Assembly (NCBI RefSeq): GCF_030649675.1
Contig: NZ_JAUTDR010000011.1
Span: 1-64,000 of the forward strand
Direction of reading: 5' to 3'
Source: Haliea sp. E1-2-M8
GTDB lineage: Bacteria > Pseudomonadota > Gammaproteobacteria > Pseudomonadales > Halieaceae
DNA: 64,000 nt
Shown here: positions 10,958 through 31,039 of the stretch, one piece after another
How positions within the stretch are numbered: position 1 is the first letter of the stretch
How the letters are laid out: every line of letters begins with the position of its first letter
Position numbers and translations under genes: made by a program
Notes under the pieces: generated by a model
What the model was told of the DNA's origin: nothing
The model's database searches: none
Seen by the model: only the letters and a program-made list of their open reading frames with translations

Positions 10958-11530
10958 TCAGCCGACAAAAGCCTTGCTCGGTGCGGCCACGCCCTCAGAC
11001 TTGGTGCCCTTGAGGTAGGCCAGGATGGTGTCGGCGTCGGACACTTCGAAGGGGTCGGTGGGGCAGACATCGCCGAAGTCAGGCTCTACGAACAGCTTCT
11101 CGATTTTGCCGTCGTTGACCAGCATGGAGTAGCGCCAGGAGCGCATGCCGAAGCCCAGGTTGGACTTGTCGACCAGCATACCCATCTTGCGGGTGAACTC
11201 GCCATTACCGTCGGGCAGCATCTTCACGTTCTTGGCGCCGACGCTCTTGCCCCACTGGAACATGACAAACGCGTCGTTGACCGACAGGCAGTAGACATCG
11301 TCGATGCCCGCGGCCTTGAACTCATCGTACAGCTCCTCATAGCGGGGCAGGTGGTTGGAGGAACAGGTCGGAGTGAACGCTCCGGGCAGGGAGAACAGGA
11401 CGACCTTCTTGCCGGCGAAGATATCGTCGGAGGCAGTGTCCTGCCAGCGATAGGGGTTTTCCCCGCCGACGGACTCGTCGCGGACGCGGGTCTTGAAGAC
11501 AGTGTGGGGTACTTGGCCGGTAGCGATCAT
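10958..11530 (-). CDS. Peroxiredoxin, Prx5/PrxII type
   Basis: 190 residues. The thioredoxin-fold core has [15 protein letters not shown], with the peroxidatic cysteine in PGAFTPTC as in the Prx5 group; Arg in [11 protein letters not shown] is the other active-site residue. It reduces hydrogen peroxide or organic peroxides with glutathione, glutaredoxin or thioredoxin. It is cytoplasmic, with no signal peptide. GAGGAG precedes ATG11530 by 7 nt. It follows the multiheme cytochrome operon on the same strand after a 137-bp gap with its own AT-rich promoter region. Confidence 0.93.
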
Positions 11531-11667: not shown

Positions 11668-13956
11668 TCAGAAGCCCGGCAATCTCCGCAACCCGTGTAC
11701 GCTGGAAACGTCCTGGGAACGCCCCTCGCCGTGGCAAACCGCACACTGTTCCACCACCTCGCCGCTGTCGATGGCCTGCTGGCTGGTGGCAAAGTCGGCG
11801 CCGTTGCTGCGCATATGCGCTTTGGCGACCGGGTCGTCGTGGCAGCCGGCGCAAGCGGTGGCCATGGGCGTAGCCACGATGTCGTCGCGAGGGTCCTCGC
11901 GATTGTCGCCGGTATCTACCGTCGTTGCCAGCACACCATCGGCCAACGGCAGTTTATAACCGTCATCAGTGTGGCAGGCCAGGCAGTTGTCCAGGCGCCC
12001 GGGGTAGTGCACCGCGTCTTCGTCGAAAACATACGTGGTGAACCCGCGGAAACCGACTATCTGCAGTGGATTGTCGCGAATTGAGGGCGCGTGGATGGCG
12101 TGGATCATGGACTTGAAGTCAATAGACTCCTCCTGCTTGCCGTCTGTTGGCGGGGATGCCGCGATGCCGCGCACGTCCCGATCCGTATTGCGCGGGTTGT
12201 GGCAACTGACGCAGCTGTCGATATTGTCGGCCCGGTTGCCGCCGTGGAGTACCAGTGAACCGTGACAGGCAAGGCACTTGTCCAGCTCTACGGACTGGCG
12301 GCGCTCTACGGGCATGCCATCGGCCTCGTCCATGGAAAAGAAGGCGTGGGCATCGCCCACGGGCACGCTGGTAAGGGTACCTTCACCTTCCAGGTCCACG
12401 GCTGCGCGCCCCTCCACGATCGCCACTCCACTGCCGCTGGCGGCGATCCCTGGCGGGACATTGCGGTCGGGGATGGGCAAGTCCATGGTAACGGTGTAGC
12501 TGCCGTCCCCGCTGGGCACGGCCCCCGCCAGGGCGCTGCTGGATATCGAACTGGCAGCCGGACTGTTGTTCCCCGTGTTGTGATAGTCCCGGGTGTCCCA
12601 GGCCAGGCGTATATTGAGAGCGCTGCCGGGTCGCTGCCAGATCGGATCATTGGCGAGATCGTAGTCGTCCCCGGTGAGCGGGTTGCGCAGGCGGAAACTG
12701 ACCCGGGCCTGCTGTCCCGGGGCGCTGTTCTCCACCCCCAGCACAGTGGCCGCAAACGTCTGTCTGGCCTCGTTGAACAGAATACGGTGACTGTCGGCGA
12801 TACTGCCGGCGCGGCCCCCGGCGGAGTGGCAGCTGGCGCAGCGGGAGTCGTCTTCCTGGCCCCCGGCGTGGCGGCTGAAGTCAAAGGTGTCGTGGCAGCT
12901 GCCGCAGGCGGCAATCGAGGGATACTCCGCCCAGTTGTCTCCCTGGCTGGTCAGGAACACGTCGGCCCGATCAGCGCCGGTTGCGGTGCCGGCATGGCAG
13001 TTGCCACAGAGGCGGATGTCCTGCGGATAGTGCAACCCGGAGTAGTCGTGCTTGCTGTCCCGGAAACCGTAGATGGCGTACTCGCCACCGGCCTGCACGC
13101 TGGGCAGCTCGGCGCCCATATGGATCTTGTGGATCATAACTTTCATGTCCACGGTGTTGCCACTGTTGGCATCGGTGGAACCGGGGTTGTGACAGGTTAC
13201 ACAGTAGTTTATCTCGACCCGGCCACCGCCGTGAAGCGCCAACTGGTCGTGGCAACTGTTGCAGCTTGCGGTGGTGGCGACCTGGCGTTGGAACAGGCCG
13301 TCAGTCGCACCCGTGGCCGGCACGAAGTCGTAGTCCGGGTTGGCCGGCACCTGGCCACCACCGAACTGGATGGCGACGCGATGAGTCAACGCCGGGTCGT
13401 AGCCGAGGTCCAGGCCCTCGCTGTCCGCCTGGGTCAGAATCTCCTCCGGCAGGGCGTCAATTGCGGTGGCGAAGCGGTAGCGGTAACTGCCGTCGCCATT
13501 GTTGCTGAGTTCACCGCTGGCTTCGGTGGTTGCCTGGAGCCGCGCCTGTGTACCCGGGCCAACCCCGGGTTGCTCAATTCTGTTGATGTAGGATTGCCAG
13601 TCGCCGGTGAGGTTGCCTTCGGCGGAGGGAGTGAGCTTGGCAATGATAAAGCGCACATTGTCCAGGGTCAGGTCGGTGATGGCGTTGTTGCTCCCGTCGC
13701 TCAACTGAAAGTCGACCAGCGGACGGCCGTCCCCGGGGACTGTCACATTGGTGATGAAGGGAAACAGTTCACGCGCCTCGGCATAGGGCGCCGGATTGGC
13801 TTCCGGGATCACGGGTGGGGGCGGGGTGACGCTCCCGCCCGGCGGGGTCGGGCCGGGTTCAACCCCGGGGGCGCGGTCGCCGCCGCCTCCGCCGCCGCAG
13901 GCGACCAGCAATGCCAGCAGGCCCGCCAGTACTGTCCTTGCACCAAAGATTTTCAT
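11668..13956 (-). CDS. OmcA/MtrC-family decaheme lipoprotein
   Basis: 762 residues. A lipoprotein signal peptide (lipobox LVAC, about residue 20) is followed by six glycines and a Pro/Gly linker. An Ig-like N-terminal domain spans about 60-210. Ten CxxCH haem sites run from about residue 232 (CNSCH) to 738 (CAVCH): five in the first cluster, then a haem-free beta domain, then five more. This is the pentahaem-beta-pentahaem plan of cell-surface MtrC/OmcA, the terminal reductase exposed to minerals or other extracellular acceptors. GGGAGA lies 7 nt before ATG13956; an upstream in-frame extension overlaps the mtrB-like gene and is rejected. It is last in the cytochrome operon, 20 nt after the porin. 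Confidence 0.93.
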   Translation of the reverse strand: MKIFGARTVLAGLLALLVACGGGGGGDRAPGVEPGPTPPGGSVTPPPPVIPEANPAPYAEARELFPFITNVTVPGDGRPLVDFQLSDGSNNAITDLTLDNVRFIIAKLTPSAEGNLTGDWQSYINRIEQPGVGPGTQARLQATTEASGELSNNGDGSYRYRFATAIDALPEEILTQADSEGLDLGYDPALTHRVAIQFGGGQVPANPDYDFVPATGATDGLFQRQVATTASCNSCHDQLALHGGGRVEINYCVTCHNPGSTDANSGNTVDMKVMIHKIHMGAELPSVQAGGEYAIYGFRDSKHDYSGLHYPQDIRLCGNCHAGTATGADRADVFLTSQGDNWAEYPSIAACGSCHDTFDFSRHAGGQEDDSRCASCHSAGGRAGSIADSHRILFNEARQTFAATVLGVENSAPGQQARVSFRLRNPLTGDDYDLANDPIWQRPGSALNIRLAWDTRDYHNTGNNSPAASSISSSALAGAVPSGDGSYTVTMDLPIPDRNVPPGIAASGSGVAIVEGRAAVDLEGEGTLTSVPVGDAHAFFSMDEADGMPVERRQSVELDKCLACHGSLVLHGGNRADNIDSCVSCHNPRNTDRDVRGIAASPPTDGKQEESIDFKSMIHAIHAPSIRDNPLQIVGFRGFTTYVFDEDAVHYPGRLDNCLACHTDDGYKLPLADGVLATTVDTGDNREDPRDDIVATPMATACAGCHDDPVAKAHMRSNGADFATSQQAIDSGEVVEQCAVCHGEGRSQDVSSVHGLRRLPGF

Positions 13957-13976
13957 GTCGGGTCTCTCCCGGAGCC

Positions 13977-16250
13977 TTAGTGCCAGCGATACAGCACTGA
14001 CAGGCCCACATAATGCACGTTTTCGTTGGGATTGCGCTGGCCGAAGGTCAGCACCTTGTCGATGGTATTGGCCGATACTCCCTGCCAGGCCCAGTCGTCG
14101 GACTGGTAGCGGTAGTAGCGGTACTGAACGCGAAAGGACACGGCCTCCTGCCAGTGCCACAGGCCGCTGGCATCAAACTGGTGCAGGCGGGTATCCACGG
14201 TCGGCAGGTTGGCGGGGTTCAGATCGGCCGCCGCCACCGGGCTGAAATCCTGCCGCGCCCGGGTGTCGACAAAGCGGTAGTCCAGTTCGAATTCCAGCTC
14301 TTCCCGTGGTTGCCACTGCAGTTGACCGCCCAGCACCAGGCTGTCGTCGCGGTTGGCCAGGAACCAGTTGCGCGCAGGGTCGCTGGCCTGCGGCAGCGGG
14401 GCCTGGACGGCGAAGGCATTCTTCTCCTGGCCGCCGCGGAAGGCGCGGCTGCCCTGGTCCGCTTCGTAGCGGTCCAGGCCGGCGTGCAGGTTGAACTGCA
14501 GGCTGGCGTGGGGCAGGTAGCTGGCGGCGAGTTGCAGGCTCTGCAGCCGGGTCTCGGTAACCCCCAGCACGGACTTGTCGAAATCGTCCTCGCGCCACAG
14601 CAGGTTCAGGTTGAAGCTCCAGCGCGGGTCGGGCAGGTAATTCAAGTCCAGCTTTACCTGCTGCTGCTCGCGATTGGCGAGGTAGTACTGGCTCAGCAGT
14701 GGATGGTTGCTGTAGCGCTGGCTGTCGGGAGTCGCGTTGATCAGGGCGCTGTCCAGCAGCGCATACCAGGACTGGTCCCACTGGTACGTGTCGGCGCCGC
14801 GGTCGGCCCAGGTCAGGCCCAGTTTCGCACCCAGGGATTGCCAGGGCTGCACCCGGTACTCCAGGCTGTAGCGGTCCTCGACGGTGTCCTCGGTGGCGGC
14901 GTTGCGACGCTCGATTTCCTCCCAGGCATAGCCCAGGGTCAGCTGTCCGCGCAGGGGCAGCCGGTAGTTGGCTTCCAGCTCCAGGGTCTGGCTCAGCAGA
15001 TCGTGGCTGCGGTTGTAGACAGTCAACTCGGGGCGGGACTGGTCGCCGCCATCACCGGGAATGTAGCGGTAGCCATCGCGAGGTGCGCTGTAGTCGCGGT
15101 CGCGCAGGCGGTAGCTCAGCTGGAAATCCAGCTTGGGATGGGCCTGCCATTGCAGCCTGGCCCGGCTGTGGGTGGTGGCGACCTCACCATCAAAGCTGTC
15201 CCGCGGCAGCGGTTGCAACACGCTCAGGGCTGGATTCCCGGAATAGGGCAGCAGGGCCTGGTCCTGTTCCGCGACGGCGTAACTGCCGTCAAAGTGCAGG
15301 CGCAGACGCGGCGTGAACAGGTAGTGGCCGCTAAGCCTGGCGCTGGCCTGGCTGTTGTCCGGGGCGAGCGCCAGGGCGCCCTCGCCAGTGGGATAGCGCA
15401 CCCGGGGGCCAAAGCTGCCGTAGGGATTTTGCCAGCGCAAGGCGGCATCCCGGTTGTCGAAGTCGGACCAGGCCAGGCTGGCCTGCAGGTGCAGGCGGTC
15501 ACCGCTGTAACCCAGGCTGGCGTCTGCCTCCAGGGTACGGTGGTCGATGGGGGCGGGCAGCAATACGCCATCGCCGGAAGCGGCGTCGATATAAATGGCC
15601 CCGCCTGTGTCGCCGGTACCCTCGCGGGTGCTGTAGCGCAAGCTGGAACCCAGCTGCCAGTTGGCGTTGAGCCGGCTATCCAGGGAGAGGTAATAGTTGT
15701 TGCGCTCCAACTCCCGGTCGAAGCGCTGCAGCGCACCGGGCAGTGCAGTCCAGCTGGCCGTGGTGAGGCCGCTGACCCAGTCCGCGGGCAGGGTCAGCAC
15801 CGTATCGCCCTGAAACGGGGTCTTGCCACTGTTGTTGCGCACCTGCTGCTGGTGGTCGAAGCCGGCGCTTAAGCGCAGCTTGCCCGGAACCCCCCAGCGC
15901 AGTTCGCCCTCGCGGGTCGCCAGCCCGAGATCCGACAGCGATGCCTGCCAGTAGCTCTCGGCGCCGGCAAAGCGGCGCCAGTCCAGATTGCCCAGCAGCG
16001 TCCCGCCCTGTTCCTGCAGGCCGTTGTACTGCCCCGCCATGAAATTGTCCGCGCTGCTGTAGCCCAGCCCCAATTCCAGAGTGCCGCGATAGTCGGTCTG
16101 CCAGCGGGTGGCCAGCGGCCTTGTTTCCTCCAGCAGCCCGGCGAAACGGTCCTGGGCACTGGCCGTGGCCGCCGCCAGACAGGTGCATGCCAGCAGCGCC
16201 GAGCGCCATGTCGGCTGCCGGAGTCGCGCTGGGCAGGGCCGCCGCTTCAT
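13977..16250 (-). CDS. MtrB/PioB-family outer-membrane porin
   Basis: 757 residues with a signal peptide (cleavage near ATASAQ, about residue 32) and alternating aromatic/polar beta strands throughout, ending YVGLSVLYRWH with no tail, as in outer-membrane barrels. The family forms the sheath through which a periplasmic decaheme (MtrA) meets a surface decaheme (MtrC). Length is close to Shewanella MtrB. The mature chain contains no cysteine that I could find, so the N-terminal CXXC of Shewanella MtrB is absent. Its ATG overlaps the stop of the decaheme gene upstream (ATGA), indicating coupled translation. Confidence 0.9.
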   Translation of the reverse strand: MKRRPCPARLRQPTWRSALLACTCLAAATASAQDRFAGLLEETRPLATRWQTDYRGTLELGLGYSSADNFMAGQYNGLQEQGGTLLGNLDWRRFAGAESYWQASLSDLGLATREGELRWGVPGKLRLSAGFDHQQQVRNNSGKTPFQGDTVLTLPADWVSGLTTASWTALPGALQRFDRELERNNYYLSLDSRLNANWQLGSSLRYSTREGTGDTGGAIYIDAASGDGVLLPAPIDHRTLEADASLGYSGDRLHLQASLAWSDFDNRDAALRWQNPYGSFGPRVRYPTGEGALALAPDNSQASARLSGHYLFTPRLRLHFDGSYAVAEQDQALLPYSGNPALSVLQPLPRDSFDGEVATTHSRARLQWQAHPKLDFQLSYRLRDRDYSAPRDGYRYIPGDGGDQSRPELTVYNRSHDLLSQTLELEANYRLPLRGQLTLGYAWEEIERRNAATEDTVEDRYSLEYRVQPWQSLGAKLGLTWADRGADTYQWDQSWYALLDSALINATPDSQRYSNHPLLSQYYLANREQQQVKLDLNYLPDPRWSFNLNLLWREDDFDKSVLGVTETRLQSLQLAASYLPHASLQFNLHAGLDRYEADQGSRAFRGGQEKNAFAVQAPLPQASDPARNWFLANRDDSLVLGGQLQWQPREELEFELDYRFVDTRARQDFSPVAAADLNPANLPTVDTRLHQFDASGLWHWQEAVSFRVQYRYYRYQSDDWAWQGVSANTIDKVLTFGQRNPNENVHYVGLSVLYRWH

Positions 16251-17125
16251 CGCGTCAACCTGGCGCCCGAGGGGTGATTGGAACCGTGGACCTGGCTGTG
16301 GCAGTTGAGGCAGTTCTTGCCCAGCACATTCTGGTTGCCGCTACCCCCGGCCAGACCCTCAGCGCCGTAAGGCAGGCTGGGGTGGAAGGCGGCCACATGG
16401 CATTGCTGGCACAGGGCGGGGCCGCGGGCGGTGAGCAGACGCTCGTGGATGGCACCGTGCGGGCGGTGGCAGAGGCTGCAATCCTCGGCTGCTGGCGGAT
16501 GCTCCCAGAGGAATGGCCCGCGCTTTTCCTGGTGGCATTGCAGGCAGCTGTCGTTGACGGAGGCCTGGTGCAGGCTGGCCTCCCCGAGGCTGCCGTGGGG
16601 ATTGTGGCAGTCGCCGCAGTTGGTTTTACCCTCGGCTATGGGGTGGCGGGAGGGCAGTAGCAGCTCTGCCTGTACCCGTGTGTGGCAGCTGAGGCAGGCC
16701 TGCTGTGCCTGGGTGTCCGTCAATGCGGGGTCCTGCTGCCGGTGGCTGTCGTGGCAACTGTCGCAAACCATGCCCTCGCGCTGGTGTTCACTGCCCGCCC
16801 AGTGCAAGGCGCCGCCCCCGCTGTGACAGCCGAGGCAGGCACCGGCCCGCTCCGCCGCGGCTGACTCCCGGCGCGGGCCGAAGCTGACTCCGGGCATCGC
16901 GGTCGGGTCGAGCGCATGTTCCTCGCTCGCCCCGTGACAGCTGACGCAGCTGCCGGAGCCGCCCCCGCCCAGGCCGCCGTGGACGGTCTGGAAAACGGCG
17001 TGTACCGCCACATCCGCTGTGAGGGTATGGCAGCCCAGACACTCGGGAACGCCCTCCTGTTCCGCCGCGGTGGCGATCGATGGCAGACACAGCGCCAGGG
17101 TGAGCAACAACCAGCGCATGGCCAT
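16247..17125 (-). CDS. MtrA/DmsE-type periplasmic decaheme cytochrome
   Basis: 292 residues: Sec signal peptide (MAMRWLLLTLALCLPSIATAA) then ten CxxCH motifs (CLGCH, CVSCH, CLGCH, CDSCH, CLSCH, CGDCH, CLQCH, CSLCH, CQQCH, CLNCH). Ten haems in about 270 residues is the MtrA/DmsE/PioA plan. In known systems it fills the MtrB barrel and carries electrons from periplasmic or inner-membrane cytochromes to the surface. The start is ATG17125, which overlaps the upstream stop as TGATG with GGTGGA before it. Flanking genes complete the conduit. It is paralogous to the N-terminal part of the next gene upstream. Confidence 0.93.
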   Translation of the reverse strand: MAMRWLLLTLALCLPSIATAAEQEGVPECLGCHTLTADVAVHAVFQTVHGGLGGGGSGSCVSCHGASEEHALDPTAMPGVSFGPRRESAAAERAGACLGCHSGGGALHWAGSEHQREGMVCDSCHDSHRQQDPALTDTQAQQACLSCHTRVQAELLLPSRHPIAEGKTNCGDCHNPHGSLGEASLHQASVNDSCLQCHQEKRGPFLWEHPPAAEDCSLCHRPHGAIHERLLTARGPALCQQCHVAAFHPSLPYGAEGLAGGSGNQNVLGKNCLNCHSQVHGSNHPSGARLTR

Positions 17126-18681
17126 CAATCCACCTTGAAATCAGTATTGATGCCGTCGGTGGCAAAGGTCAGGGGCAGGGAGATCCAGTGTTTGCCGCCG
17201 GGATTGTCGGCGCCGTGCAGGGCAATGCCCAGGGTCATCTCGCGCCCGGGCGCAAAGGCCAGACCTCCGGGCAAGGGCTTCAGGGGCCGACGCAGGGTGA
17301 CCTGCCAGCGCCCGTTGTTGAAGCGCGCCGTGCCTTCTACCAGGCTGTCCTGATGCCAGTCGATGCCGGCCAGCAGAACGCCGCTCTCGACCGTGACCGG
17401 ATCCTGCAGTTTGACCCGCCAGAGCTCGGCGAAATTGCCGGCCTCCCGCAGGGTAGTGAGGGCGGCTTCATCCCGGACCACGGGCGGGCGACCGATCTGG
17501 CGCTCCTGCAGCCGTGAAGCCAGCAGGTACTTGTCCAGTTGCTGGCCCCGGTCCCGGGTCATGCCGGGCATGTCACTGTGGCAGGCGGCGAAGCAGCCGG
17601 CGCGGGCCAGTTCGTCGTTGCCGTCATCGCCCCACATCACGGCCAGATCCTGCTCCGTGCCCGCGCCGCTCCAGTCGATAGTCAGCACCAGATTGCCGGC
17701 ATCCGAGCCAACCCTGACGTTGATGTCCCGGGTAGCGGGGGCGAAATCGTCGTTGGCAAGTGCCGCGCCCATTGCCGCCTCGTCGCCACGGTGGCATTGC
17801 TGGCAGCTGCTGCCCTGGCGCAGGGGCTGGGAGCCCGGATGCTCGCTCAGCAGCCACTCGCTGTCGGACTGGCCGGGGTAGAACAGGGTCACCTTGCGGC
17901 TGCTGCTGGCCTCGGCGATCAGCGGCGCAACGCCCGCCGCGGCCACGTGGGCGATACCCACATGGCAGCCGAGGCAGGTCTTGTCAGTCTGCGCCATGAC
18001 CTTGTGGTAGCTGGTGGCTTTGGCCGACACCGCGGGGTCAGCGGCCATGTCGACCAGGTTGTGGCAGCTGGCGCAGCCCTCGGAGCGATTGTCCAGCATG
18101 ACCCCGTGGGGGCTCTTGCTGTCGTGGGGGCTGTGGCAGCTGCTGCAGGCAGGGTTGAAGTGGACTTTTTCGCTGAGACCGTGGATCCCGGATTTCTGCT
18201 CCTTGTGGCACAGGGTGCAGACTTCCGCCTGCCCCGGCGGTTGCAACACGCTGTCCCGGATGGTGTGGATATCGTGGCAGGTAACGCAGGCCAGCTCCTG
18301 CTGTTGGTGATGGGCGCCCTCCCAGTGGCGGGCGGTATCATCGCCATGGCAGGCAAGGCACTGGCCGTCCTGCCGGGCAACGGTGGTGGTCCAGCGCGGC
18401 CCGAAGCTGACCGCTGGCGGCACCTGGGTGGGGGCGCGGCTGTGGGCGGCGCTGGGGCCGTGGCACTCTTCGCAACCGCGCTCCGCCATCGGTGTGCCCT
18501 CGTGGTCGCTGGCACCGTGCGCTCCCTGCAGCAGGGGGTGAACCGGCGAGCTGTCGCCAAAGTCGTGGCAGCCAATGCAGGTCTCTGCACCCTTTTCGGC
18601 GTAGCCCGGCTCGGCGGCTGCCGCGCTCAGGGTCGCCAGGGCGCCGAACATCAGGGTGAGGAACAGTAGTCGGGCAGGCAT
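17125..18681 (-). CDS. DmsE-like multihaem cytochrome fused to EB_dh-like domain
   Basis: 518 residues: signal peptide (PARLLFLTLMFGALATLSAAAA), nine CxxCH motifs over about 30-310, then a beta-rich C-terminal domain (about 320-518). That domain has the pattern of EB_dh/DOMON haem-binding proteins: NLVLTIDW, GCFAACH (a CX3CH site), ELWRVKLQDP, G.W.VTLRRPL and a final HW..LPLTF. The N-terminal part repeats the decaheme MtrA layout, including AVSFGPRW, which matches VSFGPRR in the neighbour, so the two genes look like tandem duplicates. ATG18681 is chosen because AGGAGG lies 9 nt upstream and a signal peptide follows; ATG18711, overlapping the upstream stop, is the alternative. Likely role: periplasmic electron relay from the NapC-type protein. 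Confidence 0.85.
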   Translation of the reverse strand: MPARLLFLTLMFGALATLSAAAAEPGYAEKGAETCIGCHDFGDSSPVHPLLQGAHGASDHEGTPMAERGCEECHGPSAAHSRAPTQVPPAVSFGPRWTTTVARQDGQCLACHGDDTARHWEGAHHQQQELACVTCHDIHTIRDSVLQPPGQAEVCTLCHKEQKSGIHGLSEKVHFNPACSSCHSPHDSKSPHGVMLDNRSEGCASCHNLVDMAADPAVSAKATSYHKVMAQTDKTCLGCHVGIAHVAAAGVAPLIAEASSSRKVTLFYPGQSDSEWLLSEHPGSQPLRQGSSCQQCHRGDEAAMGAALANDDFAPATRDINVRVGSDAGNLVLTIDWSGAGTEQDLAVMWGDDGNDELARAGCFAACHSDMPGMTRDRGQQLDKYLLASRLQERQIGRPPVVRDEAALTTLREAGNFAELWRVKLQDPVTVESGVLLAGIDWHQDSLVEGTARFNNGRWQVTLRRPLKPLPGGLAFAPGREMTLGIALHGADNPGGKHWISLPLTFATDGINTDFKVD

Positions 18682-18707
18682 GGGGTGAGGTCCTCCTGAG
18701 ACGGCGT

Positions 18708-19298
18708 TCATTCGCGGCGCGCCACTGGCTGCCCGGAGTTGTCGGGATGGGCTATGCCTGTGTGGCAGTCAATACAGGTCTTGCCGTTGCTGGCCATGGC
18801 CCGGTGGTACTCCTGCGCCTTGGCCGACTGCAACTCAAGCTGCATCCGCTCTACCACGTGGCAGTTGCGGCATTCCTGGGAGTCGTTGGCGCGCAAACGG
18901 GCGATTTCCCGCGCTTTCATCGCCGGGGCATGGGCGGCATATTTTTCCGGGGTATCTATCAGCCCCATGAGACTCCACCACACCTCTCGGGAAGCCTCGA
19001 TCTTGCGTGCCACCTTGGGAATGAATTCCTTGGGCTGGTGGCAGTCCGCGCAGGTGGCGTGGTTTCCGGTGGCATTGCTGTAATGGCTGGTTTTCTGCAA
19101 CTGGGGCCAGGGGTTGTCGCGCATCTCGTGGCAGCTTAGGCAAAACTCCTCGGTGCTGGTGGCTTCCATGCCGTAATCCAGCGCTGCCCAGCCCACCAGC
19201 CCGATGGCCATGCCACCGACCAGCAGGGCCAGTACGGAATAGCGCTGTGTCGGCTGGCGCAGTGCCTGCCACCAGCCTCTCAAGCGTCCTTTCGCCAT
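18708..19298 (-). CDS. NapC/NirT-type tetrahaem cytochrome (CymA-like)
   Basis: 196 residues. A single N-terminal membrane anchor (about 20-42, VLALLVGGMAIGLVGWAAL) leads to a periplasmic domain with four CxxCH motifs (CLSCH, CADCH, CRNCH, CIDCH). NapC/NirT/CymA proteins oxidise menaquinol or ubiquinol and pass electrons to periplasmic partners. It is the first gene of the operon, which fits a quinol-to-surface path. AGGGG lies before ATG19298; an in-frame ATG 36 nt earlier has no site. A CRP/FNR-like half-palindrome lies about 80 nt upstream. Confidence 0.93.
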   Translation of the reverse strand: MAKGRLRGWWQALRQPTQRYSVLALLVGGMAIGLVGWAALDYGMEATSTEEFCLSCHEMRDNPWPQLQKTSHYSNATGNHATCADCHQPKEFIPKVARKIEASREVWWSLMGLIDTPEKYAAHAPAMKAREIARLRANDSQECRNCHVVERMQLELQSAKAQEYHRAMASNGKTCIDCHTGIAHPDNSGQPVARRE

Positions 19299-19455: not shown

Positions 19456-20628
19456 ATGACAAAATCCCGGACCCATAAACCTCTGGCGCCTCTGCGCCTC
19501 AGCCGCCGACCCCTGGCAATTGCCCTTGGTGGCCTTCTCCCAATCCTGACCGCCTGTACCGATGGTTCCGATAGCGGGCCGCTGGCTCCGGTTACGCCGC
19601 CACCAGAAGTGGTGGAGCCGGAGGCCGTCCCCTTTCAGGAACTGCTGGACCAGGGTATTGCGCGCTATCTCGGCGAGTACACGCCGATGCTGTCAGAGCA
19701 GGATGGCGATGTGGTCAATCACACATTCGGCGCCGGCGACGGCCCGCTGTGCCTGACCGGTGGCGAATACACCATGGCCACCCGCGATACCGGCTCCGAG
19801 GATCTGGTGATCTTTCTGCAGGGCGGTGGCGCCTGCTGGTCTGACCTGTGCCTCGCGACCGAGGCAGCGGCTCCCGGGATTCCACCCCTGGGCGTGCTCG
19901 ACCCGGCCCGCGACGGCAACCCACTGGCTGGCATGAGCATGGCCTACCTGCCCTACTGCGACGGCTCCCTGCACGCCGGGGATCAGGACGTCGATACCGA
20001 CGATGATGGCCAGACGGACCGCTTCCATCGCGGTCTGCACAACCTGTCCGCGTCCCTGGATGTGGCGGTGACCACCTTCCCCTCGCCGCGGCGCATCGTG
20101 CTGACCGGGGTCAGTGCCGGAGCGTTCGGTACAACCTATGCGCTGCCATTGGTGCGCCAGCTCTACCCCGACGTCCCCATTGATCTGATCAATGATTCGG
20201 GCATCGGCCTCGGCCGTATCGATGAGCCCGAATTCATCACCCAGCTCCTGACCGAGTGGAACGCCGCGGCCTTTTACCCGGAAAGCTGTGATACCTGCAT
20301 CGGCGACGATGGCCATACCACCGACTACCACAAGTACCAGCTTGCGGAAGACGACAACCTCCGCCTGGGAATGATGAGCTACACCCGGGACACAGTCATC
20401 GCAGTGACCTTCGTGCAGGTGGGCGGCGAGGCCTTCGAAGCTGCGTTGCAGGAGGAACTGGATGACCTCGAGGCCGCGTATCCCGAGCGGGTGAAAACCT
20501 TCGTCGCTGCTGGCCCCGCCCATACCTTCCTGATTGGCGACCTGACGCAGACCGCCGGCGGCGTTACCGTGGCGGACTGGGTGACTTCAATGCTGGAAGG
20601 AGAGGGGTGGGAGACTACGCGGGATTAA
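19456..20628 (+). CDS. Pectin-acetylesterase/Notum-like lipoprotein hydrolase
   Basis: 390 residues. A lipobox (ILTAC, about residue 34) is followed by a proline-rich linker, then an alpha/beta-hydrolase core typical of the PAE/Notum family: FLQGGGACW (oxyanion region), LTGVSAGAFGT (nucleophile Ser in GxSAG) and AGPAHTFL (catalytic His). Family members deacylate polysaccharides or protein-bound lipid. An acidic stretch DQDVDTDDDGQTD near 175-187 resembles a calcium-binding loop. GGAG lies 8 nt before ATG19456. It is divergent from the cytochrome operon and convergent with the Ig-like lipoprotein. Location is predicted as the outer membrane; substrate unknown. Confidence 0.83.
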   Translation: MTKSRTHKPLAPLRLSRRPLAIALGGLLPILTACTDGSDSGPLAPVTPPPEVVEPEAVPFQELLDQGIARYLGEYTPMLSEQDGDVVNHTFGAGDGPLCLTGGEYTMATRDTGSEDLVIFLQGGGACWSDLCLATEAAAPGIPPLGVLDPARDGNPLAGMSMAYLPYCDGSLHAGDQDVDTDDDGQTDRFHRGLHNLSASLDVAVTTFPSPRRIVLTGVSAGAFGTTYALPLVRQLYPDVPIDLINDSGIGLGRIDEPEFITQLLTEWNAAAFYPESCDTCIGDDGHTTDYHKYQLAEDDNLRLGMMSYTRDTVIAVTFVQVGGEAFEAALQEELDDLEAAYPERVKTFVAAGPAHTFLIGDLTQTAGGVTVADWVTSMLEGEGWETTRD

Positions 20629-23240: not shown

Positions 23241-24470
23241 TCAGAGCCAGCCCGCCACCCCCAGCAGCTTGACCACACCCAGGCCGACGGCCACGGCCAC
23301 CACGATTGCGCCGAGGAGGTTGGCACCGACGCCATTGGTGTGTTGTCCCAACAGTGTGCGGCTGTTCATCACCAGCAGCAGAAACACCGCGACCACTGGC
23401 AGCAACAGGCCGTTGGCCATCTGCGCAAACAGGATCGCAGTCAGCGGCCTGGTACCCAGGGCGGCGAACAGCGTGCCGGTCAGGAGGACCGTCACCCAGA
23501 CCAGGCGGAAGCCGGGCGCGGACAGGTTATTGCGCCAGCCCAGGGCACCGCAGACGGCGTAGGCGGCGGCCAGCGGTGCGGTAATCGCACTGGTGAAGCC
23601 GCCCGCAAACAGGCCGGCTGCAAAAACGTACCTGGCCGCCGGGCCCAGCAGGGGTTCCAGTTGCCGGGCCAGGGAACCCCCCTCGAATGCCAGACCGGTG
23701 CTGAAGAAAGCCGCCGCGGCGGTGCTCATGATTGCCAGGGTGATAAGGCCGCCGAGGCCAATAGAGAGCCCGCTGTCCAGCCGCGACTCGCGGATAGCCT
23801 GGTCGACCGGTATATCGGCCGACCACTTTTCCCGCACTGCATTCGCGTGCAGGAACAGGTTGTAGGGCACCACGGTGGTGCCCACCAGGGCGATCACTAC
23901 CATGACCGAGCCCTCGGGCAGGGTGGGGCGCAGAAGGCCGAGCAGCAGGTCCTTCGCGGCGGGGGCGACCATTGCCGCGGTCAGCAGGAACACGATACTC
24001 ATGGTGAGGACCAGCAGGATCAGCGTGCCCTCCAGCAGGCGGTAGCGGCCGCTGGCCAGCAGCAGGGCGGCGCTGCCCCCGATAACGACAGCCCAGAAAC
24101 CGTCTCCGGGGTTGATGATGTTGTTGAGAGCCAGCGCCGCTCCCGCGATGTTGCCCGCTTCATAGGCCGCGTTGCCAAAGCCCACCGCAGCCACAATCAG
24201 CAGCACCGCGAACTTGCCGAACAGTGGGCTGCGAAAGTGGGCACGCATCGCCTCGGCCAGACCCTCGCGGGTGACCAGGCCGAGCCGCGCGCTCATTTCC
24301 TGCAGAACCAGGGTGGCCGCGACGGAGAACAGCAGCGCCCACAGCAGGGCAAAGCCGAAATGAGCGCCGGCGCTGCTGGCGGTGGTGATGGTGCCCGGCC
24401 CGATGAAGGCAGCGGTCACCAGAAGGCCCGGACCAAAGCGGGAGCGGCGCGGGGAGCCGGCAGTGTTCAT
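23241..24470 (-). CDS. Nramp-family transporter with altered metal site
   Basis: 409 residues, about eleven hydrophobic segments, the Nramp/LeuT fold. TM1 reads AAFIGPGTITT where manganese/iron Nramps have DPGN; TM6 reads VGTTVVPYNLFLHA where they have a metal-binding MPH. The Pro and downstream NxFLHA-type residues of TM6 are kept. The fold assignment is therefore firm but the substrate may not be Mn or Fe. No strong Shine-Dalgarno precedes ATG24470, which faces the glycosyltransferase gene divergently across a very short gap. Confidence 0.85.
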   Translation of the reverse strand: MNTAGSPRRSRFGPGLLVTAAFIGPGTITTASSAGAHFGFALLWALLFSVAATLVLQEMSARLGLVTREGLAEAMRAHFRSPLFGKFAVLLIVAAVGFGNAAYEAGNIAGAALALNNIINPGDGFWAVVIGGSAALLLASGRYRLLEGTLILLVLTMSIVFLLTAAMVAPAAKDLLLGLLRPTLPEGSVMVVIALVGTTVVPYNLFLHANAVREKWSADIPVDQAIRESRLDSGLSIGLGGLITLAIMSTAAAAFFSTGLAFEGGSLARQLEPLLGPAARYVFAAGLFAGGFTSAITAPLAAAYAVCGALGWRNNLSAPGFRLVWVTVLLTGTLFAALGTRPLTAILFAQMANGLLLPVVAVFLLLVMNSRTLLGQHTNGVGANLLGAIVVAVAVGLGVVKLLGVAGWL

Positions 24471-27106: not shown

Positions 27107-27820
27107 TCAGCTGATGGTGCCCGTTACCCGGACCCGCTTGGCGCCCTTGACCGGCTTGCTCCTGAGTGCATCCTGGCGGCGCTTGAGCTGGCGATCCAAC
27201 AGATTCTTCCCTGCAATCAGCAGCCCGGTGAAGATAAACGCTCCCGGGGGCAGGATGGCGAGCAGGAAAGGCTGGTAGTCGGCCACCAGCACCAGTTCCC
27301 AGCTGGCGGCAGAGGGGCCGAACAGCAGCTCCATGTTGGCAAACAGCGCGCCGGTACCCAGTAGCTCGCGCAGTCCACCCAGCAGCACCAGTACCACCCC
27401 GAACCCCAAACCCATCAGCAGGCCGTCATAGAGCGCGGGCCCGATCGGGTGCTTGCTGGCAAAAGCGTCGGCGCGGCCGAGGATGGTGCAGTTGGTGGTG
27501 ATCAGGGGCAGGAATATCCCCAGGATCAGGTACAGTTCGAAGGCGAATGCCTGCATCAGCAGTTCGGCGCAAGTGACGGCGGAGGCGATGATCATTACGA
27601 ATACGGGCAGCCGTATGGCGTCGGAAACCACATTGCGGATCAGCGACACCGCGGTATTGGAGCAGACCAGCACCAGGGTGGTGGCCGCCGCCAGGCCGAG
27701 GGCATTGACCACACTGCCGGTTACCGCCAGCAGGGGGCACAGGCCCAGCAGCTGCACCAGCGCCGGGTTGTTTTTCCACAGGCCGTTGAGGGTCAGTTCA
27801 GCGTAACTGGGCGTACTCAT
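27107..27820 (-). CDS. rnfE: Rnf complex subunit RnfE
   Basis: 237 residues, six hydrophobic segments; the [25 protein letters not shown] start and [17 protein letters not shown] motif are the RnfE/NqrD signature. It is a membrane subunit of the ion-coupled ferredoxin:NAD oxidoreductase. A basic C-terminal tail ([16 protein letters not shown]) follows the last helix. It is last in the rnfABCDGE operon; its ATG overlaps the rnfG stop (ATGA). Confidence 0.96.
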
Positions 27821-28461
27821 GAGGTCTCTCCCGCGGGTGCCTGGGTAGCAAACAGGCTGGCGCGCTCACTCTCGACATACTGCAGTGCCCGCAGGATGGC
27901 CGCAACCACGGCCCGCGGGGTAATGGTGGCGCCGGTGAACTGGTCGAACGCGCCACCGTCCTTGCGCACCGCCCAGCGTGCGGGCGGGGGATCGCCGAGG
28001 GAGCGACCGTCAAAGTCCAGGATCCAGTCCGATTTCTTCAGCTCTACCTTGTCGCCCAGCCCGGGTGTTTCACGATGGCTGAGCACCCGCACGCCGGCGA
28101 TGCTGCCATCGGCATTTACCCCGACGATGAGCTCAATGTCGCCACTGTAACCGTCGCGGGCAACCACCGGCACGATCACGGCCACCGGCTGCCCGTCCTG
28201 GCGTGCGACATACATTGGCCGGTCTTCGCGCAGGCCCAGGCCGTGACTGCCCGCCGGCAGCAGATGGGTGTCGTCCAGCATGCTGTTGTCGTGGCGCTCC
28301 CGGGGAATGATCTCCAGCAGTGCCCGCTCCTCGGCCTTGCGCCGCTCCGCTGCGATCGTGTCCTTGGTCAGCAGCCAGGTGCCGGCTATAAGGAAAGCCG
28401 TCAGCAGGGCGAAGCCAGCCAGCAGGGCACTGTTGCGGGTGATGGAGCCGAGGACGCGCAT
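27817..28461 (-). CDS. rnfG: Rnf complex subunit RnfG
   Basis: 214 residues: an N-terminal membrane anchor ([21 protein letters not shown]) then a periplasmic domain with the FMN-attachment threonine in [12 protein letters not shown] (near residue 180). RnfG carries covalently bound FMN in the Rnf electron path. ATG28461 overlaps the rnfD stop by one base (TGATG). The open frame extends further upstream, but only this part matches the family. Confidence 0.95.
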
Positions 28462-29489
28462 CAGGCCTGGCCCCCTGTCTTGCGGTGGCCATAGGTGCGG
28501 GGCTGGGTGTAGTGGTCGATGAACGGTGCCGCGAAGTTGGCAATCAACACCGCAAAGGCGACCGCGTCGGGGTAGTTGCCCCAGACCCGGATCAGGTAGA
28601 CCAGGACGCCGATCAGGGCGCCGAACACCAGCCGCCCGCGTACCGAGACGGCCGAGGACACCGGGTCGGTGATGATGAAGAAGGCACCGAACATGGTGGC
28701 GCCGCTCAACAGGTGGAACAGGGGCGAGCCGCCGCTGGCGGAGCTGCCGCCGTCGTGAAACACTGCGGCCATCAGGGTCAGAGCGGCGAGCATGGCCACC
28801 GGTGCGTGCCAGGTAAAGATGCGCCGGTACAGCAACCAGGCGCCGCCGGCGAGAAAGGCCAGGTTGGCCCACTCCCAGCCGATCCCTGCCCAGCGCCCGA
28901 ACTGGGCCGTCTGCTGCCAAAGGTCCTCCAGCAGCAGGCTCTCGTTCTGCCGCAGCACATCCAGCGGCGTGGCCATGGTCACCGCGTCGAAGCTTGCGGG
29001 CTGGAAGCAGGCCTGCAGGGCCCGCCACAGGCCGGGCACTTCCGCCAGGCCGCGGGGCGGTGCCCAGGCTGTCATCTGCAGGGGGAAGGAAATCAGCAGC
29101 ACCACGTAGCCGACCATGGCGGGATTGAAGGGGTTGTAGCCCAGCCCGCCGTAGAGATGCTTGGCCATCAGTACCGCCGAGGCCACGCCGATGGCGATCA
29201 ACCACCAGGGGGCGTAGGGCGGCAGGGCGATACCCAGCAGCACCGAGGTGACCAGAACGCTGTAATCCTTCAGGTAAAACCCCGGGGATTGGCCGCGCAG
29301 TGCCAGCGCCAGCGTCTCGCAGGCGACCCCCACCAGGCAGGCCCAGAGTACGTTGACCAGGGTACCGAAACCGAAGAACCAGGTGAGCACCGCGATGCCG
29401 GGCAGGGTGGCCAGCAGCACCTGGCGCATCACCGCGCCGGTACTGATGCTGGCGTGGGCGTGGGGCGAGCTGATCCTGATCAGCGTCAT
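28461..29489 (-). CDS. rnfD: Rnf complex subunit RnfD
   Basis: 342 residues, about nine membrane segments. The covalent FMN site is LSGATMFGAFFIITDP (near residue 235), and YVVLLISFPLQMTAW and NPAMVGY are typical of the RnfD/NqrB family. It carries electrons across the membrane and contributes to ion translocation. Its ATG overlaps the rnfC stop as ATGA. Confidence 0.96.
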   Translation of the reverse strand: MTLIRISSPHAHASISTGAVMRQVLLATLPGIAVLTWFFGFGTLVNVLWACLVGVACETLALALRGQSPGFYLKDYSVLVTSVLLGIALPPYAPWWLIAIGVASAVLMAKHLYGGLGYNPFNPAMVGYVVLLISFPLQMTAWAPPRGLAEVPGLWRALQACFQPASFDAVTMATPLDVLRQNESLLLEDLWQQTAQFGRWAGIGWEWANLAFLAGGAWLLYRRIFTWHAPVAMLAALTLMAAVFHDGGSSASGGSPLFHLLSGATMFGAFFIITDPVSSAVSVRGRLVFGALIGVLVYLIRVWGNYPDAVAFAVLIANFAAPFIDHYTQPRTYGHRKTGGQA

Positions 29490-31039
29490 GAGTTGGCCTC
29501 GGTTTCAGAGGTGCCCGCAGCGGCAGCTTTCTTCGCCTTGGCGCGCTCAATGGCGGCCTGGATGGGGTCCTCGCCGCCCTCGGCCGCCGTCTGTTCGGCC
29601 CGCTTCTCCGCCGCCTGCTTGCGCGCCGCGCGTTTCGCCTCCCGCTCTTCCTCTTCGCGCGCGATCCGCGCCTGGCGGGCTTCAAAACGCAGCCGTGCCT
29701 GTTCGGCTTTCTCGTGGTCGCGGCGCTGCTGCAGGATATCTGCCTTGGAGGCGCGATAGTATTGCACCAGCGGGATGGTGCTGGGGCAAACCCAGGAGCA
29801 GGCGCCGCATTCAATGCAGTCAAACAGGTTGTGCTGTTCCAGTTTCTCGACTTCCTTGCCCCGGGCAAACCAGTACAATTGTTGCGGCAGCAGGCTGGCG
29901 GGGCAGGCTTCGGCACAGAGACCACAGCGGATGCAGGGCTGGGCCGGCGGCGGGGCCGGCAGCTCGGTGACACTGGGCGCCAGCAAACAGTTGCTGGTTT
30001 TAACCACCGGCACCTGCGGGCTGGCGAGGGTAAAGCCCATCATCGGGCCGCCCATGACCAGACGCTCGCAGCGCTCGGGCTGGAAGCCGGCGAGGTCCAG
30101 CAGGTGCTGCATGGGCGTGCCCAGCAGGACCTCGAAATTCTGGGGTCCGGTGACGGCCTCCCCGGTCACCGTGGTGATGCGGGAGATCAGCGGTTGACCG
30201 TGCAGAATGGCATCCCCGACCGCCACTGCGGTGCCGACATTCTGGCACACGATGCCAATATCCACCGGCAGGCCTCCGCTGGGCACCTGCTTGCCGGTCA
30301 GGATTTCGATCAGCTGCTTTTCCCCGCCGGACGGGTATTTGGTGGGGAAGGTTACCACTTCCACTGCGGTACCTGTTGCCGCCTTCTCCAGCGCAAGGAT
30401 AGCCTCGGGTTTGTTGTCCTCTACCCCCAGCAGCACTTCATCCGGGTGCAGGATATGGCACAGGATGACGATACCTTCGATGATCTGCACCGCCCGCTCC
30501 TGCATCAGGATGTCGTCGGCGGTAATGTAGGGTTCGCACTCGGTGCCATTGACGACCAGGGTCCTGATCGTCGCCCCGGGCTTGCCGGCCAGTTTGACCG
30601 CCGCCGGGAAGCCGGCCCCGCCCATGCCGGCGATACCGGCGGCACGGATCAGCTCCAGCAGCTCCGTCGCCTCGCAGTCGCGGAAATCCGCGACGCCCCG
30701 GTGCGCGATCCATTCGTCGCGGCCGTCGCAGTCGATGACAATACAGGGTGCGCTCAAGCCCGAGGGATGGGGGATGGGGCGGTCTTCAATGGCGGCTACG
30801 ATGCCGGAACTGGGTGCGTGCAGCGGTACGCTGACGTGGCCGCTGGCCTCGGCGATCATCTGGCCCTTGAGCACGCGCTCGCCAACCTGTACCAGGGGTC
30901 GCGACGGTGCGCCGATATGCTGGGACAGGGGCAGGACCAGCTGCGGCGGGACGCCGGCGTTGCGAATCGGGCTGCGCAGGGACTGATGCTTGTTCTCGGC
31001 GGGGTGAATGCCGCCGTGGAAATCGAACACCCGCCTCAT
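29486..31039 (-). CDS. rnfC: Rnf complex subunit RnfC
   Basis: 517 residues: N-terminal barrel-sandwich segment ([13 protein letters not shown]), the NADH/FMN-binding Rossmann-like domain ([22 protein letters not shown]), then two 4Fe-4S motifs ([12 protein letters not shown] and [12 protein letters not shown], about 365-415). The C-terminal 90 residues are charged Ala/Lys/Glu-rich coiled coil; this tail is shorter than the very long tail of some enterobacterial RnfC proteins. It is the NAD(H)-reacting peripheral subunit. Its start overlaps the rnfB stop. Confidence 0.96.

Follow-up and report, generated by a model that had tools for sequence, protein, structure and literature searches.

What would an apparently aerobic heterotroph do with a multihaem route from its quinol pool to the cell surface? 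This question is raised by an operon of Haliea sp. E1-2-M8 (Halieaceae) that lies in the 64,000-nucleotide stretch analysed here (contig NZ_JAUTDR010000011.1, positions 1 to 64,000; hereafter the window) and runs on the minus strand from 19298 to 11668. Its five intact, co-directional genes encode, from 5′ to 3′, a NapC-like protein, a fusion of an MtrA-like half to an EB_dh half, MtrA, MtrB and MtrC (Table 1), and their translations keep all haem motifs. We read the operon as an MtrCAB conduit of the published Group 6 type, in which electrons would flow outward from ubiquinol through NapC, the fusion, MtrA/MtrB and MtrC to acceptors of high potential, and we give this reading a probability of about 0.58. 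A preliminary description of the locus had reported five genes that overlap or nearly touch, and the junctions are indeed tight: a gap of 26 nucleotides (nt) before the fusion gene, whose ATG at 18681 is preceded by AGGAGG; 1 nt shared by the fusion and MtrA genes (TGATG, given an MtrA start at ATG 17125); an overlap of 4 nt between the MtrA and MtrB genes; and 20 nt between the MtrB and MtrC genes (that is, +26, −1, −4 and +20). CxxCH motifs number 4, 9, 10, 0 and 10 in gene order, and the fusion carries one CX3CH besides (CFAACH), so that the earlier tally of 33 CxxCH (4+9+10+10) plus one CX3CH was reproduced from the translations. This clustering is not due to chance, because a six-frame scan of the window found no stop-to-stop fragment outside the operon with two or more CxxCH. 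The MtrC start that was assigned mechanically, GTG 14160, is probably an error; ATG 13956 is more likely, and the protein read from there opens with a signal that includes an LVAC lipobox, recognized by eye.

At sequence level, the five family assignments made in that description and its quinol-to-surface architecture are borne out (PF03264, TIGR03508, PF09459, PF11854, TIGR03507 and structure 6r2q). The NapC-like protein matched PF03264 with 211 bits and has four CxxCH and an N-terminal membrane anchor (by eye); against the NapC/NirT subfamily model TIGR02161 it scored 231 bits, under the curated cut-off of 310.6, and its closest solved structure is NrfH (2j7a). Judged by these scores it is a divergent member of the superfamily that we assign to neither the NapC nor the NirT subfamily. 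No other gene of the genome matches PF03264 strongly; the one further match falls inside the fusion. MtrA and MtrB belong to the DmsE/MtrA (TIGR03508) and MtrB_PioB (PF11854) families and match chains A and B of 6r2q (scores in Table 1); the only cysteines of MtrB (6, 22 and 24) all lie inside the likely signal peptide. MtrC, the single OmcA/MtrC-family match of the genome, resembles MtrF (3pmq, 4.4e-41), OmcA (4lmh, 8.7e-39) and chain C of 6r2q (1.3e-15). In the excerpted text of PMC10654088, 6r2q is named as an MtrAB complex, and its third chain carries the label OmcA/MtrC family. An MtrA-family decahaem protein, an MtrB/PioB porin and an OmcA/MtrC-family decahaem lipoprotein are therefore encoded side by side, each matching a chain of 6r2q, and the operon is probably an MtrCAB extracellular electron conduit with quinol-to-surface architecture. 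The CcmF/NrfE family has one match in the genome.

The family name of TIGR03508 also suggests a conduit of the DmsEFAB kind, which would serve an enzyme rather than a mineral, with a DMSO-reductase-like or other surface oxidoreductase as its terminus. Two molybdoenzymes of unassigned type elsewhere in the genome (L025 and L026) could be enlisted for this idea. The operon itself, however, has an MtrC/OmcA protein and no molybdoenzyme, and the four PF00384 genes of the genome are all on other contigs; two of them encode formate dehydrogenase alpha subunits, and no score comes up to the dmsA or DMSO_red_II_alp cut-off. We consider an enzymatic terminus very improbable. The more specific alternative named in the preliminary description, a DMSO-reductase module whose catalytic subunit lies elsewhere, found no support and was rejected, as none of the four PF00384 proteins scored as DmsA over cut-off.

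Systems of this kind have already been published. Baker et al. 2022 (mBio, PMC8805035), in the portions relevant here, describe for Halieaceae a 'Group 6' mtrCAB that includes a 'nonaheme' mtrA-DOMON protein, whose function those portions call not yet verified. The Haliea operon shares with Group 6 the Halieaceae host, the mtrA-DOMON fusion, the inner-membrane tetrahaem protein, mtrA, mtrB and a single mtrC right after mtrAB. It differs in three respects: no octahaem gene (ohc) was found in the 64-kb window; it is bordered by genes for a peroxiredoxin and a pectinacetylesterase-like protein, whereas the same portions of the paper (PMC8805035) report hemH in most Halieaceae clusters; and the protein termed 'nonaheme' there has a tenth (CX3CH) site here. 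In one relative (L031:4999-6869), an octahaem cytochrome with its own NapC-like tetrahaem protein lies divergently beside the mtr operon, and octahaem open reading frames (ORFs) also occur in L042-L045. The top NCBIfam match of the L031 cytochrome, hydrazine dehydrogenase, is far under cut-off; the octahaem cytochromes beside the mtr operon in several Halieaceae are probably the ohc of Baker et al.

The fusion is the least familiar component. The preliminary description had listed it as one extra periplasmic cytochrome, 'DmsE-like/EB_dh', which agrees with its scores of 115 bits against TIGR03508 (under the cut-off of 192) and 43.5 bits against the EB_dh model PF09459 (over the cut-off of 33.3), and it can be explained further. 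Its C-terminal half has one CxxCH and one CX3CH within the EB_dh domain, the combination that characterizes NirB-like EB_dh domains. This CX3CH is kept in 18 of 18 homologous ORFs, window included, taken from genomes found by whole-protein search and limited to those whose ORF was picked by script (for L015 and L022 the script took the MtrA ORF, and L022 has no EB_dh domain). Because of this conservation, the fusion likely binds ten haems rather than nine. Residues C363, A365, A366, C367, H368, W421, H498 and S501 are invariant in two alignments, A1 (17 rows, without L015, L021 and L022) and A2 (43 selected sequences); C293, C296 and H297 are likewise invariant in the 43 rows of A2, most of which were found through a CX3CH motif scan. 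That scan of contigs used the patterns [GA]GC[FW]AACH and CHRG[DE]EAx[MIL][GS], which makes CX3CH conservation in L027-L095 partly a matter of construction; the evidence independent of the patterns consists of the 18 ORFs and three plasmid proteins described below. H498 is a candidate second axial ligand of the CX3CH haem, and the alignment to EbdC (2ivf_C) ends before this residue.

Elsewhere, the EB_dh half with its one CxxCH and one CX3CH is a separate protein of roughly 260-430 amino acids by ORF length. In two loci of Betaproteobacteria (L094 and L086) it adjoins a cd1 nitrite reductase (PF02239), with a NapC-family gene in between in L086. A tblastn search with the L094 protein matched 5 of 72,556 plasmid records, and in the three plasmids examined (Ruegeria, Azospirillum and Aliiroseovarius) a NapC-EB_dh fusion gene follows an annotated cytochrome D1/nitrite reductase gene; its product has four CxxCH in the NapC part and CxxCH plus CX3CH in the EB_dh part (Pfam assignment for the Ruegeria protein only). 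This arrangement is like that of cd1 denitrifiers, in which, according to an excerpt of PMC13086519, the NapC-family protein NirT is tetrahaem and NirB dihaem, their genes being adjacent or fused (NirTB). The EB_dh proteins beside cd1 genes carry the same motif pair as the fusion, and we equate them with NirB solely on the grounds of position and haem count. Unlike NirT/NirB, the operon has no nirS (no cytochrome D1 domain was found in its five proteins), its EB_dh domain forms one protein with an MtrA-like octahaem half, and its predicted output is MtrCAB. The EB_dh half is homologous to the NirB-like domain, yet it is not a NirB.

A different context for the separate protein is provided by EB_dh-MtrA-MtrB clusters in Methyloprofundus, Acetobacteraceae, Rhodospirillaceae and others. 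These have the same neighbours as the operon but no octahaem fusion, and the unfused stretches examined gave no MtrC match, L081 excepted. The order is NapC, EB_dh, MtrA, MtrB in Methyloprofundus and most Acetobacteraceae loci, and EB_dh, MtrA, MtrB, with NapC not adjacent, in several loci labelled Rhodospirillaceae or Marinimicrobia; some Marinimicrobia-labelled contigs group with Rhodospirillaceae in the EB_dh tree, and their labels may be binning errors. In that tree of 73 domains, 22 fusions formed one group with a Shimodaira–Hasegawa-like approximate likelihood ratio test (SH-aLRT) support of 99, nested in a group of 54 (SH-aLRT 99) that includes the MtrAB-linked single proteins, with the NapC-EB_dh fusions outside; the tree comes from a quick method with SH-aLRT only, has long branches (L081, L066, L037 and L048), and its outgroup rows do not fall on one side of any branch. 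In a tree of 66 MtrA-like rows, restricted to proteins with exactly 9 or 10 CxxCH, 21 octahaem halves formed one group separate from MtrA (support 100). Since fusions form one group in the first tree and octahaem halves one group in the second, a single origin of the fusion is most likely, from a dihaem carrier that was linked to NapC and had already been joined to MtrAB. Two Methyloprofundus EB_dh proteins ahead of MtrA (L049:9417-10352 and L051:3396-4331) each combine a single CxxCH with a single CX3CH. What an excerpt of PMC13322032 terms the 'periplasmic monoheme cytochrome' of a Methylobacter conduit may be the same protein and thus dihaem. On a Marinimicrobia-labelled contig (L050:14048-16948), a DUF1800-DUF1501 gene pair (Pfam) follows MtrB, and the ORFs after MtrB in L062 start like it (start sequences only); the pair is a possible new partner of MtrAB.

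The quinone pool bears on which acceptors such a conduit could serve. None of the 140 family genomes exceeded the MenD cut-off of 244 bits (G015 came closest with 218, and the best score in this genome was 66), against 7 of 14 control genomes; the MqnA family had no match in this genome and matched 4 of 14 controls. Three UbiA-family genes are present. As no menaquinone marker was found in the genome, the pool is likely ubiquinone and ubiquinol the likely donor. Ubiquinol is a poor donor for crystalline Fe(III) oxides, and it suffices for O2, Mn(IV) or chelated Fe(III). The acceptors are likely of fairly high potential, given a pool that seems to consist of ubiquinone alone. The metabolic setting fits an aerobic heterotroph, as first described, with five COX1-family matches and no RuBisCO, which occurs in only 3 of the 140 family genomes. 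Shewanella has the best-studied MtrCAB, fed through CymA, and a menaquinone requirement is mentioned in the excerpted Baker et al. 2022 (PMC8805035). The Haliea operon has the same MtrA, MtrB and MtrC families and a NapC-family tetrahaem protein (compare 6r2q), but its NapC gene lies inside the operon, neither MenD nor MqnA was found in the genome, its MtrB has no CXXC, and the ten-haem fusion stands in place of the CctA/FccA that the same source (PMC8805035) gives for Shewanella. Beside the mtr operon of L031 (7061-8071) lies a gene for a UbiA-family prenyltransferase that is closest to MenA-type models but under their cut-offs, with no MenD found; in L022 an ORF upstream of NapC resembles it by eye.

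Electron order, direction and acceptor are what we infer from these comparisons. NapC would oxidize ubiquinol at the inner membrane and hand electrons to the periplasmic ten-haem fusion, whose C-terminal dihaem EB_dh domain would be the ancestral partner of NapC. The N-terminal MtrA-like octahaem half would relay them to MtrA within the MtrB barrel, and MtrC would deliver them outside the cell to Mn(IV), chelated or poorly crystalline Fe(III), O2 or an electrode, giving an aerobic heterotroph an additional electron outlet. Two features favour outward flow: the presence of MtrC, and an EB_dh module of the kind paired with a quinol-oxidizing NapC.

Several observations weigh against this outward, ubiquinol-driven reading. 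The absence of menaquinone is judged from two marker families in a draft genome that is 98.8% complete. The EB_dh half is missing from 4 of the 23 family genomes that have the N-terminal half of the fusion (G042, G026, G034 and G032, in three genera): their octahaem ORF stops short of the EB_dh domain and is followed downstream by a ten-CxxCH ORF (MtrA), and in G034 the two genes are separated by a fragment that resembles residues 436-515 and contains one stop. As four family genomes lack it, the EB_dh half is not always needed, and the octahaem half may receive NapC electrons directly. None of the 20 MtrB proteins of fusion-type loci (window plus 19 loci with fusions) has a CXXC, and among all 40 MtrB rows a single one does, near the C-terminus (L063). 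An N-terminal CXXC in mature MtrB is reportedly a signature of metal-reducing Gammaproteobacteria (Wee et al. 2014 are cited for it), and the operon MtrB does not carry it. C42 of the CxxC in Shewanella MtrB is reported to matter for Fe(III) reduction. Baker et al. 2022 (PMC8805035), again in the portions relevant here, leave the direction of electron flow open. Apart from these points, in G053, a single-contig relative, MtrB and the fusion are each split over two frames (G053:C1 around 3224409-3229355), through decay or sequencing error; in G126 (L125), fusion-like gene fragments with a stop lie at G126:C41:54378-55131, and MtrB is on another contig.

The reverse direction is unlikely in our judgement, although parts of the evidence suit it. 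Electrons would then enter MtrC and MtrAB from Fe(II), a reduced mineral, another cell or a cathode, to be fed by NapC to the quinone pool or other carriers and on to oxidases, as in Pio/Mto-like systems. The MtrB without CXXC and the five COX1-family matches fit this scheme, and a ubiquinone-only pool accepts electrons from low-potential metals more readily than it donates electrons to them. The closest relative, at 82% identity in the fusion, is a Haliea metagenome-assembled genome (MAG) with 'Biocath' in its name, Biocath_Gamma_022; this would also suit electron uptake, but a MAG name is no evidence of cathodic activity. The absence of RuBisCO removes autotrophy by that route, and autotrophic iron oxidation was rejected on this ground. 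PioAB and MtoAB share the MtrA- and MtrB-family core, whereas the Haliea operon adds an MtrC, which sets it apart from both as Baker et al. 2022 (PMC8805035) present them in excerpt, and so is not an MtrAB without MtrC. Finally, NapC/EB_dh pairs of this kind adjoin cd1 nitrite reductase, a quinol-oxidizing setting.

Beyond this strain, the nearest named relatives by fusion identity are the MAG above, Kineobactrum sediminis (66%) and Parahaliea maris (56%), all from genera of Halieaceae. Counting partial matches, 36 of 140 family genomes had an MtrB-family match at E ≤ 1e-20 and 23 of 140 a fusion match at E ≤ 1e-50; the operon is present in two of the eight genomes of the genus, this one included. 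It is flanked by the peroxiredoxin and pectinacetylesterase-like genes in the window, in its nearest relative (L027) and in Kineobactrum (L028), and in five of six operon-less congeners (G017, G018, G019, G020 and G022) these two genes are direct neighbours, with roughly 260-280 nt between the match ends; the sixth, G021, gave no close peroxiredoxin match. The operon is a presence/absence cassette. Loss from the operon-less congeners, or gain in the carriers by recombination through the flanks, are both possible. Nucleotide homology to the empty sites ends at about 11542 and restarts at about 19611, within the esterase gene, and no clear breakpoint emerged when the intergenic flanks were aligned with four empty sites. 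A foreign island was rejected on composition, the operon bins having a GC content of 0.65-0.69 inside the window range of 0.60-0.69.

This patchy distribution could mean that the cassette, as an accessory trait, is in decay or seldom used and has little present function in the strain. Loss of the EB_dh half in four relatives, a genome with only fusion-like gene fragments, and an identity to L027 of 81-87% for the operon proteins versus 90-93% for three of four flanking ones (86% for the fourth) point the same way. Against it, all five ORFs are intact with every haem motif present, and the ratio of nonsynonymous to synonymous substitution rates (dN/dS; a simple Nei-Gojobori estimate against one relative, L027) is 0.09-0.17 for all five genes, compared with 0.06-0.09 for four flanking genes. 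Purifying selection on all five genes is clear, and decay seems to us improbable.

Table 1. Features of the operon and its borders in the window
Feature	Position	Strand	Evidence
NapC/NirT-family tetrahaem inner-membrane quinol dehydrogenase (putative), 196 aa, 4 CxxCH	18708..19298	−	PF03264 1.7e-62
MtrA-like octahaem half + dihaem EB_dh (NirB-like) half, 518 aa, 9 CxxCH + CFAACH	17125..18681	−	Motifs, profiles, alignments, trees
MtrA/DmsE-family decahaem cytochrome, 10 CxxCH	16247..17125	−	TIGR03508 248 bits; 6r2q_A 1.7e-65
MtrB/PioB outer-membrane barrel	13977..16250	−	PF11854 390 bits; 6r2q_B 1.2e-20
OmcA/MtrC-family decahaem surface lipoprotein (predicted), 762 aa from ATG 13956, 10 CxxCH	11668..13956	−	TIGR03507 524 bits
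Redoxin-family peroxiredoxin, left cassette border	10958..11530	−	PF08534; synteny
Pectinacetylesterase-like protein, right cassette border	19456..20628	+	PF03283; synteny

Two further loci lie near the operon. A gene for an Nramp-family divalent metal transporter (23241-24470) occupies the matching place in L027, L028 and four operon-less congeners. At 27817-31039 there are two ORFs, both matched in Kineobactrum (L028): one has an FMN_bind domain (PF04205), and the other presumably resembles RnfC. The region is perhaps an rnf operon.

To the published Group 6 systems these analyses would add a tenth haem site, a tie between the extra cytochrome and the NapC partner of nitrite respiration, repeated loss of the EB_dh half, a quinone pool that is likely ubiquinone only, and the evidence from purifying selection and empty sites. 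The literature covered showed no link between mtrA-DOMON and NirB, and one may exist in papers outside it. A more far-reaching scenario is possible, but we hold it only tentatively: a NapC/NirB-type module resembling that of nitrite respiration would have been recruited to MtrAB and then fused to the octahaem half, yielding a ubiquinol-driven surface respiration of aerobic heterotrophs that is confined to high-potential extracellular acceptors, with the CX3CH haem as an entry point that is dispensable if the octahaem half takes NapC electrons directly. The haem count of the mtrA-DOMON protein likely rises from nine to ten, which would bring the chain of the operon to about 34 haems, and the link of NapC/EB_dh to cd1 nitrite reductases may offer this protein both a role and an origin. 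The four genomes in three genera without the EB_dh domain, and the operon-less congeners, provide natural controls. A conduit in a genome with no detected menaquinone route would allow a direct test of whether MtrCAB can be run from ubiquinol, and hence of which acceptors these bacteria can use.

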